From Natronococcus sp. CG52 (GTDB lineage Archaea > Halobacteriota > Halobacteria > Halobacteriales > Natrialbaceae): a stretch of 64,000 nt of DNA. Location of the stretch: contig NZ_CP099391.1 in assembly GCF_023913515.1 (NCBI RefSeq), positions 992,001 through 1,056,000 on the forward strand, written 5' to 3'. Below the pieces are notes generated by a model. That model made no database searches. It saw only the letters and a program-made list of their open reading frames with translations, and was not told the DNA's origin. This document shows, piece by piece, positions 24,794 through 34,146 of the stretch (position 1 is the stretch's first letter; each line of letters starts with the position of its first letter). Position numbers and translations under genes: made by a program.

Positions 24794-26068
24794 ATGTCTC
24801 GAGAACAGGAGCAAACGGCTCGGCGAACGGTGCTGAAGGGGTATGCTGCGACCGCTGTCGGGATCGGCGCGCTGAGCGGAACCGGCGCGGCGCAGGGAAG
24901 CGGTGACGAGAACCGCAGTCCGCGGCTGGAACTGGTCGGTCACTCTACCCTGGGTGCTCCGGACGGCAACATCACGAACATGGACGTCCGCGAAGATTTA
25001 GGCCTCGCAGCGACGGGATCGTTCGTGTTCGGCGATACCGACGTTCATATCGCCGACGTCTCCGACCTCCAGAACCCGGAACACGTCGCCACCACCTCGG
25101 CCGGCATCGGCTACGTGAACGACGTGTTCTTCCATCCCGAGGAGCCGTGGATCTTCACCGCCAACGAGGGCGGCGGAGACGCGGGCTGGGCCGTCGTAGA
25201 CGTCGACGATCCTGCAGAACCCGAACTGTACGGCCCGTTCACCGTCGACGACGGCGCGGGCGTTCACACCGTCATCGCCTTCGACGAGGAGCACGTCATC
25301 GTCTCGGGGACGGGCCGCGGAATCGTGATCTACGACGTTACCGATCCCGAGAACCCGAGGGAAGTCGGCGAGTTTCAGGCGACGGATCATTCGGTCGAGT
25401 CGTTGTCCCCCGACGATCCGGGCCACACCCATCCCAGCGGATACGTCCACGATACGCAGGTCCGTGGCGACTACGCCTATCTCGCCCACTGGGATCACGG
25501 TCTCTACATCGTCGATCTGAGCGATCCGGCGAATCCCGTCGAAGCCGCTTCGTTCGACTATCAGGAAGAGACGGCGGACGTCCCACTCCGGAACGCCCAC
25601 CACGCGTTCCCGCACCCGGAAGACGACATCTGCCTCGTCGGTGAAGAGGTCGGCTCCGGTAATCCAGGGTACAAACACGTGATCGAGTTCGATCTCGACA
25701 CCGGTAAGACCGAACTCCTCTCATCGTTCCGTCCGCCGCAGGGAAGCGCCCAGCAACCCACCGGTCAGCAGGGGTTCTGGTGGACCGGCCACTTCTCCGA
25801 CTGGGGCGTCGGCGACCAGCAGGACGTCCTGTTCAGCGGCGACTACAAGGCCGGCGTCCAGACGTTCGATCTCTCCGATCCGGCGAACCCGGAGCGGATC
25901 GACCAGTACGTGACCACCGACGGGGCCGACGAGGTCCGCCGAAAGGATCCAGCGAGGGCGATCGACGACATCCCGATGGTCTGGGGTGCCAACACGAAAG
26001 ACAGCGAGTACGTGTACGTCTCGGACGCCAGTACGGGGCTGTTCGTGTTCACGCTCGAGGGGTACTGA
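24794..26068 (+). CDS. Tat-exported LVIVD-repeat beta-propeller protein
   Basis: The 424-residue protein begins with a twin-arginine signal (QTARRTVLKGYAATAVGIGA) ending around residue 35. The rest is built from LVIVD-type repeats, each a short strand ending in D-P-x-N/E-P: HIADVSDLQNPEHV, AVVDVDDPAEPELY, VIYDVTDPENPREV, YIVDLSDPANPVEA and QTFDLSDPANPERI, at intervals of 40-80 residues. Such repeats fold into a beta-propeller, usually outside the cell, with carbohydrate- or protein-binding roles proposed but unproven. His-rich loops (HTHPSGYVHD, NAHHAFPHPEDD) could bind metal. It is monocistronic with its own regulated-looking promoter. Confidence 0.88.
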   Translation: MSREQEQTARRTVLKGYAATAVGIGALSGTGAAQGSGDENRSPRLELVGHSTLGAPDGNITNMDVREDLGLAATGSFVFGDTDVHIADVSDLQNPEHVATTSAGIGYVNDVFFHPEEPWIFTANEGGGDAGWAVVDVDDPAEPELYGPFTVDDGAGVHTVIAFDEEHVIVSGTGRGIVIYDVTDPENPREVGEFQATDHSVESLSPDDPGHTHPSGYVHDTQVRGDYAYLAHWDHGLYIVDLSDPANPVEAASFDYQEETADVPLRNAHHAFPHPEDDICLVGEEVGSGNPGYKHVIEFDLDTGKTELLSSFRPPQGSAQQPTGQQGFWWTGHFSDWGVGDQQDVLFSGDYKAGVQTFDLSDPANPERIDQYVTTDGADEVRRKDPARAIDDIPMVWGANTKDSEYVYVSDASTGLFVFTLEGY

Positions 26069-26371: not shown

Positions 26372-27418
26372 TCAGCGAACCTCGATTCGGTTGGGGGTCG
26401 ACCCGGTCGGTCCGTCACGGGACGCCAGGGTCACCGTCTCCCGGCTCACCCCCGCGGGTCGACGCACCGTCAGCGTCACCGCGTCCCCGGGCCGCGTCTC
26501 CGTGAGCAGGTGGCTGGTCAACTCCTCCGTCGAGCGCAGCTCGCGGCCGTCGATACCGACGAGAACGTCACCGCCGACGGGGACGGACCGGCCGCGAACT
26601 CGTCGCGTCGAGTGACAGCCGCCCAGAACGCCGCTCGCCGGCCCGTCTCGAACGTCGACGACCAGCACCCCGCCGGATTCCTCGAGCCCGTTCGCCTCCG
26701 CGACCGTCGGCGAGACGTCGAGCGTCGAGACGTGAAGGGTCGCGTGGTCGCACCGGCCCGCGTCGATCAGGTCGGGGACGACGCGAGTGGTTACGGTCGG
26801 CGAGATGGCGAATCCGATGTTGTCCCCGCTTCGCGCTCGGTTGACGCCGACGATCTCGGGCGTTTCCTCGTCCGTGAGCGCAACCAGGGGACCGCCGCTG
26901 TTCCCAGGATTGATCGGCGCGTCGGTCTGGACGACGTCGGGGATCGTGAACCCGCCGCCGACGGGCATGGTCCGCGAGACGCCGCTGACGATTCCGGTGG
27001 TGATCGTCCCGTCGAGTCCCATCGGATTGCCGAACGCCGCGACCGGCGTTCCGGGCTCCGGATTCGCCGCAGCGATCGACAGCGCCGGAGCGTAGTCGGG
27101 AAGGGAATCGACGGCGACGACCGCGAGGTCCGTATAGGGATCGGTGCCGACCAGTCGACCGACGCGCCAGTCGCCCTCGCTAAAGCGGACCTTGAGGCGC
27201 GTCGCGTCGTCGGAACCGGTCGGCGGACGTTCCGCCCGGTCCGCTCGAGTGAGGTCGGCAACCACGTGGTAGTTAGTGACGATGTGCCCCGCCCGATCGT
27301 AGACGAAGCCGGAGCCGGCGCCGGCGGCTCGCGGAGTGTCAGTGGCCAGATAGAGCGAGACCACGGACGGAGCGACGTCAGCGTACAGGCCGGTATAGTT
27401 CGGGTTGTGCGTTTGCAT
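26372..27418 (-). CDS. HtrA/DegP-type trypsin-like serine protease with PDZ domain
   Basis: The 348-residue protein is a HtrA-family protease. The triad is His51 in HIVTNYHVV, Asp97 in GTDPYTDLAVVAV and Ser174 in NPGNSGGPL. A PDZ domain follows from about residue 245 (SGGVLVVDVRDGPASGVLGG, GDVLVGIDGRELRSTEEL). The ATG at 27418 begins MQTHNPNYTGLYADVAPSVV with no signal, and a TATA-like TTACTTACG lies about 26 bases upstream. An in-frame ATG at 27520 would add 34 residues with a hydrophobic LLPRALLLSAPYLGLL segment, which could be a signal peptide. Location (cytoplasmic or exported) depends on that choice. Confidence 0.88.
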   Translation of the reverse strand: MQTHNPNYTGLYADVAPSVVSLYLATDTPRAAGAGSGFVYDRAGHIVTNYHVVADLTRADRAERPPTGSDDATRLKVRFSEGDWRVGRLVGTDPYTDLAVVAVDSLPDYAPALSIAAANPEPGTPVAAFGNPMGLDGTITTGIVSGVSRTMPVGGGFTIPDVVQTDAPINPGNSGGPLVALTDEETPEIVGVNRARSGDNIGFAISPTVTTRVVPDLIDAGRCDHATLHVSTLDVSPTVAEANGLEESGGVLVVDVRDGPASGVLGGCHSTRRVRGRSVPVGGDVLVGIDGRELRSTEELTSHLLTETRPGDAVTLTVRRPAGVSRETVTLASRDGPTGSTPNRIEVR

Positions 27419-27601
27419 CGAATCGTAACGGCCGGTATCGGCCGTAAGTAACCCGAGGTAAGGGGCGCTCAGCAATAACGCGCGTGGTAAGAGATGCCAC
27501 GACAATTGTCGGAACGACACTCGAGGAGCCCACGGCGATCGGGGATTCGCGCTACTGCGAGTTCGAGAGAAACCGCGACTGGCGATGCGCGGCGTCCGCG
27601 A

Positions 27602-29066: not shown

Positions 29067-31247
29067 TCAGGTTTCCTCACCGACCACGGCGTTGTCGTCG
29101 GATTCTCCGAACGCGACCCAGCCGTCGTCGGTTTTGGCTGCGTTCGCCTCGGACGGACCGAACGCGTACGTACCAGTCTCCGCCGGCGCCTCCGGGAAGT
29201 AGGTGAACGTGTGCGCCTCGTCCGGAACCGCGGTCCCGAAGTACACGTACTGAACGTCGCCCGCCTCCTCGACGCGCTCGACGTCGCCGTACGCTTCGTC
29301 GACCGACCACCCGTCGGGGACGACGTCTCGAACCGTCGCCTCGTGCGATACCGATTCGACTGTCACGTCGACGCGGTTGGTCTGGCCGGCGGTGAACGCC
29401 GAGCCGTCGTCCTCGCGAGAGCCCGTCACTTCGAGCGCCTCGGGCGTATCGGAATTGACCAGGTCGACTTCGTCGTGCGTCGCGAAGTCGCCGGTCTCAG
29501 CTCGCCGCACGGCCGCCGCGGCATCGACGAAGCCGGCGCCGGCATTCCACGGGGTGGAGGCGGTGTGAACGTCTTCGGCCTCCGCCTCGATCGTATCGAT
29601 GATCTTCACGGGCGTCCAGTCGTGGCCGTTTTTGCGCGCGGCGTCGACCAGCAGCGCGCAGACGCCCGCCGCGGCCGGACAGGCCATGCTCGTCCCCGTC
29701 ATCGGCGTGTAGTAGGGTTCCTCGTCGGGCTCGAGCGCGTCCAGCGGGTCGGTCGGTCCGACGGTGCTCATCACGGAGTTGCCCGGCGTCGCGACGCCGG
29801 GACGGTAGAGGCCGACCGGACGGTACCGGTGGGGCTCGCCCACCTGCTCGAACGCCTCGAGGTCGATCTCGTAGGTGACCGCGACGTTGGTCGCGGGCTC
29901 GACCTCGATCCAGTAGGTTTCGCCGCCCTCGACGTCGGTGGTCAGGGTCGTGTGCTGGTACACCGGTTCCTCGCCGAGTTTGGCGGTCTCTTCGCCATCC
30001 TTCGAGCCGCGGCGGACGATCAGCGTGATCTGCTCGCCGTCGGGGGTCAGCGAGAGGTCGAGTTCGAGGACGTCGGCGTTGTTCGGTGCGCCCCACTCGT
30101 AATAGTCGCTGCCGGTGCCGGTGGGACCGAGCTCGCCCGTCCACTCCTCGACGTCGACGACGTACCGGTCGTCGGTCATCGCGGCGTGGAACTTCTCGAG
30201 ATTGTTCAGCGCCTTCCGGCGGTCGTAGTTGGTTTCGCGGCCCTCCTCGGGCGTTCGTCCGCGAGCGGAGAAGTCCGTAACGTGCTCGTCGTCGCGAGTG
30301 GCCGCCGCGCCGATGACGTGGGGCGCCTTCGCGAACCGCGAGAGCGTATCCGGGTCGGGGCCGTCGTTGCCCGCCGCGAAGACGGGTACGATATCTCGCC
30401 GGAACGCCTCCCAGGAGGCGACGTTGACGGGATCGTTCGGATTGTACCGCATGTCGCGGGCGACGCCGTAAGAGTTCGACACCACGTCGGGGTCGAACTC
30501 GTCGTCGGGATCGTCCGCGCGGGCGAGCACGTGATCCCACGCACCGACGACGAACGGGAGGTAGACGGCCTCATTGGTCGAGTACACCGAAACGCGCGCC
30601 TCGGGTGCCATCCCGCGGTACCGTTCGTCGCTCGCCGACCCGTCGCCGGCGACGATGCCGGCGCAGTGGGTGCCGTGGCCGAGGTCGTCGGTGTCCCCTT
30701 CGGGGCCGAGGTCGATCCACTCCAGATCGCGTTCGCCCAGCGGGGTATCGACCCACTGCCAGTTCGACTCGAGTCGCCCGTCGAAGTCCGGATGCGGACC
30801 CGAGAAGCCCGAGTCGATGACGACCGCGTCGACCGACGACCCGTCGTAGCCGAGATCGGACTGGACCGCGGAGACGCCCGTCGCCTCGCGGGAGTCATCG
30901 TTATAGAACCCGAGTTCGACGGCCTTGCGGACCCGTCGAACGGAGTCCCAGTCGGCGACGCTCGAGAGCTGGTCGCCGGTTAGTGCGGTGTAGGCCATCG
31001 GCAGCACCTCGTACTCGACGAGGCCCTCCCGCAGGTCGAGGTCCGCGAGGCGGCCGACCGATTCGGCGGCGTCGAAGACGACGATCACCTCCTGGACCTC
31101 GTCTGTCGAGGCGTCGAGTTGGTCGTCGAGCACCGACGTGTCGGCCGTGGACGTTCCCGAGAACGGGAGCAGCGACGCCGCGCCGACGGCGCCGGCGGTC
31201 GAGAGTACTGTGCGTCGATCTACGAGTCGCGGCGTATCCTCTGACAT
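29067..31247 (-). CDS. Tat-exported subtilisin-like (S8) protease with internal beta-sandwich insertion, 726 aa
   Basis: N-terminal Tat signal (VDRRTVLSTAGAVGAASLLP), then an inhibitor-I9-like propeptide (about 50-110), then the subtilase domain with Asp145 (AVVIDSGFSG), His191 (GHGTHCAGI), oxyanion Asn294 (FAAGNDGP) and Ser520 (MTGTSMACP). Between Asn294 and Ser520 an extra segment (about 340-470) reads like a PPC-type beta sandwich (YEWGAPNNADVLELDLSL, ITLIVRRGS, GGETYWIEVEP, TYEIDLEAFEQ). Residues about 605-726 form a tail shared with the next subtilase (VERVEEAGDVQYVYFGTA, TYAFGPSEANAA, NAVVGEET). It lies 94 bases downstream of that subtilase on the same strand. Presumed secreted, salt-dependent. 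Confidence 0.92.
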   Translation of the reverse strand: MSEDTPRLVDRRTVLSTAGAVGAASLLPFSGTSTADTSVLDDQLDASTDEVQEVIVVFDAAESVGRLADLDLREGLVEYEVLPMAYTALTGDQLSSVADWDSVRRVRKAVELGFYNDDSREATGVSAVQSDLGYDGSSVDAVVIDSGFSGPHPDFDGRLESNWQWVDTPLGERDLEWIDLGPEGDTDDLGHGTHCAGIVAGDGSASDERYRGMAPEARVSVYSTNEAVYLPFVVGAWDHVLARADDPDDEFDPDVVSNSYGVARDMRYNPNDPVNVASWEAFRRDIVPVFAAGNDGPDPDTLSRFAKAPHVIGAAATRDDEHVTDFSARGRTPEEGRETNYDRRKALNNLEKFHAAMTDDRYVVDVEEWTGELGPTGTGSDYYEWGAPNNADVLELDLSLTPDGEQITLIVRRGSKDGEETAKLGEEPVYQHTTLTTDVEGGETYWIEVEPATNVAVTYEIDLEAFEQVGEPHRYRPVGLYRPGVATPGNSVMSTVGPTDPLDALEPDEEPYYTPMTGTSMACPAAAGVCALLVDAARKNGHDWTPVKIIDTIEAEAEDVHTASTPWNAGAGFVDAAAAVRRAETGDFATHDEVDLVNSDTPEALEVTGSREDDGSAFTAGQTNRVDVTVESVSHEATVRDVVPDGWSVDEAYGDVERVEEAGDVQYVYFGTAVPDEAHTFTYFPEAPAETGTYAFGPSEANAAKTDDGWVAFGESDDNAVVGEET

Positions 31248-31341
31248 CGTGGGTGTGAGTTCGTATCGTGGGTAGCGCGCTTCGGTACGCGAGTCACAAA
31301 CTCGAGTTCGAGACCTGAGTTTCGAGCCGTCGAATCGGTTT

Positions 31342-34146
31342 CTAAGTGCTCCGGCCGACGACGACGTTGGAGCCGCTGGTTCCCGAAATCGCGACCCAGC
31401 CGTCGCCCGCGTTCACCTCGGCCGGGCCGAAGGCGTAGGCGTCGCTCATCAGCAGTTCGTCGGGCGCCTCCGCGAAGTACTCGACCGAGGTTTCGACGTC
31501 GGCGGCGGCCGTTCCGAAGTAGACGTACTGGACGCCCTCGCCTTCCTCGACGCGCTCGACGTCGTCGGAGTACTCGATCAAGACGTCCCACTCGGCCGGG
31601 ACGACGTCCCGAAGCTCGGCGTCCTCGCTCGGGTTCGCGGTCAGTTCGACGTGGTTGGTCTGCCCACCTGTGAAGACGCTGGCGTCGTCCTCGCGGGTGC
31701 CGTCGACGAAGAAGCCGTCCTCGACGTCGACCGAACAGTCGAGGTGTACCTGAACGTCGTCACCGTTGACGCAGCCAGGCACGTTCACCAGCTTCGCGAC
31801 GACAAACGCCGTCCGATCGTCGCTGTCACGGCCGAACGAGACGGACGCTTCGGCGGTTCCGTCGAGCCCCTGCGTCCGTCCGAGCACGTTCGGTTCGCCG
31901 TTGTCGGCGGGGTTCTCGGCGTCGTAGACGAACAGATCGACGTGAGGATCGCCTTTGGCCGCCCCCTTATCGCCGCCCGAGAGGTGGCTGACCTCGACGC
32001 TGGCGGCGACCGTTCCCGGACCCGCCTGCACGTAGCCCGCCGCGGCGCGCTCGTCTTCGGGGACGTTCAGGCCGACGGCCTCGCTCGAGGTGCCCGACAG
32101 TTCCCGCGTCACCGCGTCGATCGCCGTGCCCGGGTTCACTCGGCCGAAGCCTTCGTAGGGGTCGCGGCCGCCGAAGTCGTAGCTGGGCGTTTTCGCACGG
32201 TGGTGCGGTGCTGCGGTGAGCGCCGTCTCCGTCGCCGTGGCGAGCAACACCTGTTTGAGGCGCACCACGTCGTCGAACGCAGTCTCTGCGGGCTCGGGGA
32301 GCGCGATGCTCGACGGAGCGTCCTCTTCCATCGCTTGTGCGACGAGGCCGGCGGTGCCGCAGGCGTACGGCGAGGCCATCGAGGTGCCGGCCTTGCCGGT
32401 GTAGCCCCGGATCGGGGGCTGCTCGTCCTCGGGTTCGTCCGCGACGCCCGTGTCCGCGGCGTTCGCGAGGTCCGTAATGTACCCGCCCGGCGCGGTGACG
32501 TCGGGCTTCATGTACGTGTCGTAGTCCTCCTCGTCGATCCCGCCGATGCCGCCGCTGGAGTAGCCGGAGATGCCGTCGAGCGGGCCCGTCGCAACAACCG
32601 AAATCGCTTCGTCGGCCACGGCCGGCGAGCCGTTCCCGTTCGCCGGCGTCGCGGCGTTGCCCGCCGCCGCGACCGTCAGCACGCCCGCGTCGGCGATCTC
32701 CTTGATGCGGGCGGGGATGCGATCGAGCGTGCCTGCGGCCGCGCCGAGCGGGAGGCCGCCGACGTAGCCCCACGACATGTTGACGGCGCGCATGTTGAAC
32801 AGGTCGGCGAACTCCTCGGCGTGCCGGCCCAGGTCCTCGGTCGGCCCTGAGAGTCCCTGAAGGCAGACGAGACTCTCGTTAGGCGCGATACCCGAGTGGA
32901 AGCCGTCGGCCTCGCCGGTGCGGTCGGCCGCGGTCGCGTCGGGGTCGCGGAACGCCCCGACGGCGACCGAGTCGACGTACGCGGACGTCGCCAGTTCGCC
33001 CTCGGCCGTCCGGACGTAGACCGTGTAAGTGCCGGATCGTTCGGTCGGAGCCACCGCGGTCACGTTGTCCTGGACGCCCTCGTCGGTGTCGAGCGTGGTG
33101 CGCTCGAGCGTGCGCCCGTCGGGGCCCTCGACGACGACCTCGAGGAGTTCGCCGAAGGCGGAGCCGAAGACGCCCGTGCCGGCGTCGGCCTCGACCTCGT
33201 AGGCGAGGTAGTTGCCGGTCACCGCCGAGAGCGCGGTACGAGGTTCGTCCGTCCGGACTGTATCCGGGTCGAGGGCGCTCGCCCGGCCGCTCCCGCCCAT
33301 GATGGACGCGCAGTGGGTCCCGTGACCGTTCTCGTCGCGAGGCCGGTCGTAGAAGCCGTAGCGGGACCCGGCGTCGTACCAGCCGACCGTCTTGGGCGTG
33401 TCGGCCGTCGGGGTGCCGTCGGCCCCCTCGAAGACGACGCTCGCGTCGTAGGTCGTCCGCTCGCCCTCGTACGCGAAGTAGGTCCCCGAGATTTCGTACT
33501 CGCAAGTCGTGTTGATGTACGCCTCGATGACGAACCGGTACCGCCGGTCGGGCGCGACCGATGCCCGAATCGTTTCGGGCATATCCGCCGAGGCTGCTCG
33601 GGCAGCGGTCTCCCACTGACCGTCGACGTACTCGTCCAGTCGGAGTTCGAGGTCGTTAGTGTTATCCACGTACGGCGACCACGAGAGCGAGGCGTCCAGT
33701 TCCTCCGCGTCGCTCGGCGTCGTGAACTCGTGGTACTTCTCATCGCCGGTGGCGAACGTCCCCGGCCCCATCGTGCTGGAGACGGACTTGGTATCGCCGG
33801 TTTCGACGCGCTCGAGGTCATTCTCGTCGGGCTTGGTGAGTTTTACCCGGTCGTCCTCGACGAACGCCCGTACTCCGTTCCACGGTCCGAGATCCGGGTG
33901 GCGGGAGTCCAGCCCCGAATCGGTCAGCGCGATCGTTCGATCGGATCTGCCGCGATACCCCCGGTCCCAGGCGTGGCGCGCCTCGAGCGCCCGCCAATTG
34001 AGGTATCGTCGGTCGACGTCGTCGGCTGCCACGGCGGTGTTCGCTCCGCCGAACAGGCCAGCTCCGAGGGCGACCCCGGTCGCTTTGACGAACGTTCGAC
34101 GCGAGAAGCCGGTTCTTCCCTTCTGACTCCTATTATTCTCTGTCAT
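31342..34146 (-). CDS. Tat-exported subtilisin-like (S8) protease with two insertions in the catalytic domain, 934 aa
   Basis: Tat signal FSRRTFVKATGVALGAGLFG. The triad is Asp76 (TIALTDSGLDSRHPD), His275 (ENGHGTHCAS) and Ser589 (KAGTSMASPYA), with oxyanion Asn497 (AAAGNAAT). Asp and His are 199 residues apart instead of the usual 30-50: a PPC-like beta sandwich (about 125-228, ELDASLSWSPYVDNTNDLEL, YRFVIEAYINTTCEYEIS) is inserted there. A second beta insertion (about 303-398, YLAYEVEADAGTGVFGS, GTYTVYVRTAEGE) follows the His. There is no I9 propeptide. Residues about 690-805 are another beta domain, and 811-931 match the C-terminal module of the downstream subtilase. Likely secreted. Confidence 0.92.
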   Translation of the reverse strand: MTENNRSQKGRTGFSRRTFVKATGVALGAGLFGGANTAVAADDVDRRYLNWRALEARHAWDRGYRGRSDRTIALTDSGLDSRHPDLGPWNGVRAFVEDDRVKLTKPDENDLERVETGDTKSVSSTMGPGTFATGDEKYHEFTTPSDAEELDASLSWSPYVDNTNDLELRLDEYVDGQWETAARAASADMPETIRASVAPDRRYRFVIEAYINTTCEYEISGTYFAYEGERTTYDASVVFEGADGTPTADTPKTVGWYDAGSRYGFYDRPRDENGHGTHCASIMGGSGRASALDPDTVRTDEPRTALSAVTGNYLAYEVEADAGTGVFGSAFGELLEVVVEGPDGRTLERTTLDTDEGVQDNVTAVAPTERSGTYTVYVRTAEGELATSAYVDSVAVGAFRDPDATAADRTGEADGFHSGIAPNESLVCLQGLSGPTEDLGRHAEEFADLFNMRAVNMSWGYVGGLPLGAAAGTLDRIPARIKEIADAGVLTVAAAGNAATPANGNGSPAVADEAISVVATGPLDGISGYSSGGIGGIDEEDYDTYMKPDVTAPGGYITDLANAADTGVADEPEDEQPPIRGYTGKAGTSMASPYACGTAGLVAQAMEEDAPSSIALPEPAETAFDDVVRLKQVLLATATETALTAAPHHRAKTPSYDFGGRDPYEGFGRVNPGTAIDAVTRELSGTSSEAVGLNVPEDERAAAGYVQAGPGTVAASVEVSHLSGGDKGAAKGDPHVDLFVYDAENPADNGEPNVLGRTQGLDGTAEASVSFGRDSDDRTAFVVAKLVNVPGCVNGDDVQVHLDCSVDVEDGFFVDGTREDDASVFTGGQTNHVELTANPSEDAELRDVVPAEWDVLIEYSDDVERVEEGEGVQYVYFGTAAADVETSVEYFAEAPDELLMSDAYAFGPAEVNAGDGWVAISGTSGSNVVVGRST

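Follow-up and report, generated by a model that had tools for sequence, protein, structure and literature searches.

The archaeosortase PGF-CTERM signal is a haloarchaeal C-terminal device for surface retention, carried by unrelated exported proteins. In type IX secretion, a folded C-terminal domain is common to unrelated exported cargo, many of them proteases (PMC10202324). Among haloarchaeal subtilases, the C-terminal extension of halolysin SptA was modelled with a collagen-binding fold and helps stability, substrate binding and collagen binding (PMC3158780). CLIPPER is the name now given to the DUF11 domain (PF01345), for which a solved structure, 9ifr, is available (PMC12617251). The domain described here, which we call the tail, forms the C-terminus of two adjacent subtilases, A and B, encoded in a window of 64,000 nucleotides (the whole stretch of DNA that was analyzed) from Natronococcus sp. 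CG52. No paper describing this tail was found in the open-access literature.

By the ORF calls, both genes lie on the minus strand with the longer gene, A, upstream and a 94-base gap between them (Table 1). Each protein scored 102.3 bits with the Peptidase_S8 profile against a cut-off of 21.8, and the Asp-His-Ser triad and the oxyanion Asn are complete in both, identifying them as S8 subtilases. The pro-Tk-SP structure was the nearest chain to the model of B, and on this basis a probable propeptide was assigned; A has no room for a propeptide of this type, since only about 35 residues separate its signal from the catalytic Asp (window 33900-34146). The gap has no obvious TATA box, which is consistent with a single transcript. 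The first-pass annotation had called the pair likely one operon, and this was strengthened by the recurrence of the A-to-B order in other genera, with gaps of 81-94 bases, and by the pair staying together in differing surroundings. Just beyond gene B, window positions 24794-26068 and 26372-27520 encode a tail-less Tat-exported LVIVD propeller and an HtrA-like trypsin/PDZ protease.

Table 1. Features of the subtilase pair, with coordinates as window positions.
Feature	Coordinates	Strand	Description	Basis
Gene A	31342..34146	-	Insert-rich secreted S8 subtilase, 934 aa	ORF; PF00082 E 4e-29; motif positions
Gene A catalytic residues			Asp76, His275, Asn497, Ser589	Located by motif positions
A twin-arginine signal	34024..34146	-	RRTFV, without lipobox	Translation; inferred from motif
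A insert	33451..33813	-	PPC/collagen-binding-like, residues ~112-232, between Asp76 and His275	Absent in paralogue A2; homologous to B insert
A tail domain	31345..31719	-	Residues 810-934	Profile match E 5e-45; 52% identical to B tail
A-B gap	31248..31341	-	94 bases, without obvious TATA box	Sequence
Gene B	29067..31247	-	Secreted S8 subtilase, 726 aa	ORF; PF00082 E 4e-29
Gene B catalytic residues			Asp145, His191, Asn294, Ser520	All four invariant in ten orthologues
B twin-arginine signal	31140..31247	-	RRTVL, without lipobox	Translation; weak PF10518 match E 0.016
B probable propeptide	30918..31100	-	Residues ~50-110	Stretch folded in model, confidence 80-90
B insert	29838..30164	-	PPC/collagen-binding-like, residues ~362-470, between Asn294 and Ser520	Absent in paralogues B2, B3; homologous to A insert
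B tail domain	29070..29441	-	Residues 603-726	Profile match E 3e-39; AlphaFold2 all-beta sandwich

BLAST aligned the two tails over 132 residues with 52% identity (E 4.8e-26), which establishes their homology. A common C-terminal module of about 120 residues, ending in VVG plus three residues, had been proposed from the sequence of the window, and the alignment bears it out: the similarity extends far beyond a few residues, and the proteins end in VVGRST (A) and VVGEET (B) with nothing behind either. Nor is the module an already named domain, as neither window tail has a significant Pfam or NCBIfam match. No membrane segment was found behind the tail in the window proteins.

Predicted on its own with AlphaFold2, a check that had been proposed at first pass, the tail folded confidently as an all-beta, Ig-like sandwich (pLDDT 94.7, pTM 0.87). 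The best Foldseek match was the CLIPPER structure 9ifr (E 1.9e-6, TM 0.63/0.65, rmsd 4.7), followed by archaeal cohesin and others. VIA-align placed integrin Ig-like domains at the top (Z 11.9, rmsd 3.2 over 124 residues, 10% identity), and PrgB, antigen I/II and pilin domains ranked only slightly lower; integrin, adhesin and α2-macroglobulin domains score at least as high as 9ifr against the tail. At the sequence level, PF01345 did not match the window tails and weakly matched 6 of 69 tails (best E 7e-5), and some tails showed weak matches to DUF11, NEW3, BatD and bMG10 domains. A profile-profile comparison with DUF11, for which only 16 units picked by motif were used, gave no significant link. 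An isopeptide cross-link within the tail was rejected for want of a conserved Lys: of 69 tails, 35, including that of A, contain no Lys at all, and no alignment column exceeds 10% Lys. Together, the models place the tail in a broad Ig-like group of extracellular interaction domains, and the fold by itself does not reveal function.

The first-pass annotation had described the two subtilases as otherwise very different, which is incomplete in that a second common module, a beta-sandwich inserted in the catalytic domain, was overlooked. Relative to their same-genome paralogues, A and B have about 110-120 extra residues, where A2, B2 and B3 have 12 to 24 residues over the aligned stretch. The A and B inserts aligned in hhalign with a probability of 99.3 (E 6.5e-21), and the matches were reciprocal, the A-insert HMM finding B at 3e-12 and the B-insert HMM finding A at 4e-15. 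Judged by these profile comparisons, the inserts are homologous modules placed at different points of the S8 core. Three inserts searched alone gave no Pfam match. The full-length model of B is of poor to moderate quality because just 10 sequences entered its alignment. Within it, the insert is predicted as all-beta, at a confidence that ranges from moderate to good, and the domain-sized Foldseek matches of the model include the collagen-binding domain of ColH, 3jqw (TM-target 0.64, rmsd 2.5, 97 columns). The insert module was also detected in 10 of the 28 tailed M14 carboxypeptidases, and 27 of the 29 genomes that encode it in the class search are also tail-positive. In a congener (G008, L048:8009-10188), the B orthologue is broken within the insert by one frameshift near residue 385, which reflects either gene decay or a sequencing error.

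To map the tail family, profile searches were carried out, revealing six tails in the window genome, tails in 9 of 41 related genomes, and tails in at least 38 of 391 Halobacteria genomes, a lower bound with 10 candidates scored per genome, spread over 20 of 86 genera. When about 85,000 species genomes were scanned for the tail motif with a five-tail alignment, 56 loci were returned, all haloarchaeal except one titled only 'Euryarchaeota archaeon'. Among 166 tail-bearing open frames, some of which come from overlapping source loci, the bodies were classified as subtilase A (58), propeller-like (35), M14 carboxypeptidase (28), subtilase B (23), S15 X-Pro dipeptidyl-peptidase type (12), metallophosphoesterase (5) and unclassified fragments (5). 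None of these proteins has two tails, and in 152 the protein ends within 8 residues of the tail. The first-pass view of an independently kept module is thus supported, since exported proteins of six or more kinds carry the tail, which folds confidently alone and belongs to no Pfam or NCBIfam family; the question whether it also occurs on non-protease exported proteins was answered by the tailed metallophosphatases and LVIVD propellers.

A Tat-type signal is recognizable in most complete carriers. A lipobox was found in none of 31 carriers, as against 7 of 24 other Tat-type proteins of the same loci (p 0.002), a small background that includes tail-less subtilase B paralogues. Judged by its sequences, the tail is a real, not yet named family of C-terminal domains on Tat-exported haloarchaeal proteins. 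M14 relatives are encoded in 82 genomes and tails in far fewer, which indicates that the tail is an added feature on M14. Some LVIVD-type propeller carriers (L086, L140, L144, L145, L147, L149, L150) have a short segment behind the tail that is Gly/Ala-rich and then Arg-rich. A membrane anchor in this position was considered and rejected, the Gly/Ala-rich helix of 9 of 25 propeller carriers being too polar for a clear span (17-residue mean 0.2-1.2).

The tail-bearing genes were found to be clustered: in the class search, 59 of 129 tails lie within 7 kb of another tail, against a mean of 1.9 and a maximum of 10 in 2000 trials of random placement. The clusters include the types A-B, A-M14, A-B-propeller and, in one case (L147), a four-gene A-B-propeller-M14 arrangement. 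A second cluster in the window genome (L009:3845-13234) comprises a tailed A2, a tail-less B2, a tailed M14 and a tail-less B3; the paralogues B2 and B3 have neither tail nor insert, yet adjoin tailed genes. Tails within a cluster exceed those of different clusters in likeness by a mean of about 7 points. General co-homogenization of tails inside clusters was accordingly rejected as no more than a weak effect, and strong pairwise matching of tails is not indicated. Bat-like regulators (PAS, GAF, BAT, HTH_10) adjoin tailed clusters in at least two genera (L043:4648-6657, L144:14626-17424), and it is possible that they control the secreted peptidases.

The window pair is a two-gene cassette of secreted subtilases, and we propose, with a probability of roughly 45%, that the tail serves for retention or docking after export. 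In each protein, a signal precedes an S8 core that is interrupted by a PPC/collagen-binding-like sandwich and followed by an Ig-like tail of predicted DUF11-like fold. Once exported by the Tat route, the enzymes have no lipid or membrane anchor, and the tail may provide a non-catalytic hold at the cell surface, in the extracellular matrix or on one another. S8 endopeptidases, M14 carboxypeptidases and S15 X-Pro dipeptidyl peptidases could in this way attack a common substrate close to the cell, with the insert perhaps aiding in gripping protein substrates. The proposal draws on the presence of a constant, interaction-type C-terminal domain on endo- and exopeptidases without an anchor. It is favored by the occurrence of one domain, in a single C-terminal copy, on six or more catalytic or binding bodies that are unrelated to one another and include non-peptidases, by fold neighbors (CLIPPER, integrin Ig-like, cohesin, PrgB, antigen I/II) that all serve in extracellular interactions, by Tat-type carriers without a lipobox, by the clustering of carrier genes and by a modelled insert fold related to the collagen-binding domain. 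It is weakened by the lack of strong pairwise tail matching, by the many carriers that are solitary in their genome and by the module-less B2 and B3 beside tailed genes.

The strongest rival, possible although somewhat unlikely, is that the tail acts as a cap for stability or folding, in the form of a rigid and acidic beta-sandwich that has no binding partner and shields the enzyme from autolysis and salt stress. Such a role would fit the SptA extension, which makes its enzyme more stable and more active in high salt (PMC3158780), the strong acidity of both window tails (Asp+Glu outnumber Lys+Arg by 28 to 4 in A and by 29 to 5 in B) and the fact that the carriers share little apart from export. 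However, subtilase B paralogues and M14 relatives without a tail are common, the conservation of the tail motifs GQT, RD-P-W and FGP exceeds what a generic cap would need, and the clustering of carrier genes is left unexplained. We regard as unlikely that the tail binds substrate and targets the enzyme to an insoluble protein or a cell-wall-like polymer: although Ig-like sandwiches and cohesin-like folds are often ligand binders, and substrate binding is common among accessory domains of secreted proteases (PMC3158780), the tail carriers comprise peptidases and phosphatases of different substrates as well as propellers, and the inserted PPC-like module is the better candidate for this task.

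Bolder readings give the tail a recognition partner. Quite doubtful, in our estimate, is that this folded domain works as an address tag in archaea, recognized by a scaffold or machinery at the surface, with A as the constant core, which would sort secreted hydrolases that are otherwise unrelated or assemble them into a single complex for extracellular degradation; if true, haloarchaea would have their own counterpart of the type IX sorting domains or of cellulosome docking. It is improbable that dedicated machinery, with subtilase A as part of it, reads the tail as a signal for sorting or processing, like that of type IX cargo. A folded C-terminal domain on unrelated cargo is indeed what type IX secretion uses (PMC10202324), and the extreme C-terminus of the tail is conserved (V-G at 99% and 86%, the last Thr at 88%). 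The subtilase A core was found in 36 of 391 genomes, every one tail-positive, and tails on other carriers co-occur with subtilase A in the genome except in two cases (G094 and G147). Yet haloarchaea have no outer membrane to cross, no candidate machinery was identified, and subtilase A may be just the evolutionary donor of tails, as Natronococcus-type M14 and S15 tails nest within those of subtilase A in the tail tree.

A tree was built from 142 tails. In it, the A tail of the window falls among its A orthologues and the B tail among its B orthologues, each set of five being supported at 100/99, which indicates that the two kinds of tail parted long ago and that the tail was on both genes before their spread. 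A recent local duplication or gene conversion between the neighbors, although suggested by the adjacency of the genes and the 52% identity of their tails, is therefore rejected, the window tails not being sisters and orthologous tailed pairs occurring in other genera. The tree requires 21 carrier changes, against a minimum of at least 6 and about 82 with shuffled labels; on this evidence, the tail mostly keeps to its carrier, yet has moved several times. Relatives of the pair at 84-90% identity were found elsewhere in the family, in a second genus and with other neighboring genes, and the closest of the congeners searched, whose aminotransferase is 98% identical, has the flanks but lacks the A-B pair. 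The A-B pair is an accessory cassette. Natronococcus genomes differ in the genes that lie next to the aminotransferase, on the side of the HalOD1 gene (L213-L219), as if insertions were frequent there.

Together, our results define a previously unnamed domain family by which a group of exported enzymes of haloarchaea, often encoded in clusters, can be recognized, along with a module inserted at differing points of the S8 core. The means by which haloarchaea keep their secreted enzymes close by when neither a lipid nor a sortase anchor is present are poorly known, and the tail offers a handle on this question. Among the described systems, DUF11/CLIPPER is likewise extracellular and provides the best Foldseek match, but it forms tandem stalk repeats, whereas the tail is a single C-terminal copy without a conserved isopeptide Lys. 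The SptA extension is also an accessory beta-domain on a haloarchaeal subtilase (PMC3158780), and the tail of A and B is another, Ig-like domain. The insert resembles, in its modelled fold, the ColH collagen-binding domain; in contrast to PPC/collagen-binding domains, it sits within the catalytic domain and lacks the two-Cys pair. With the type IX C-terminal domain the tail has in common that a folded C-terminal domain is found on unrelated exported cargo, many of them proteases. It differs in that none of the type IX families is listed among the Pfam and NCBIfam matches of the 69 tails and in that its hosts have no outer membrane; type IX structures are also absent from the 50 fold matches listed, which is not evidence of difference. 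The PGF-CTERM signal is, like the tail, a C-terminal element common to unrelated haloarchaeal exported proteins, but the translated C-termini of A and B have no PGF motif, transmembrane segment or basic end, and the tail is a whole folded domain.
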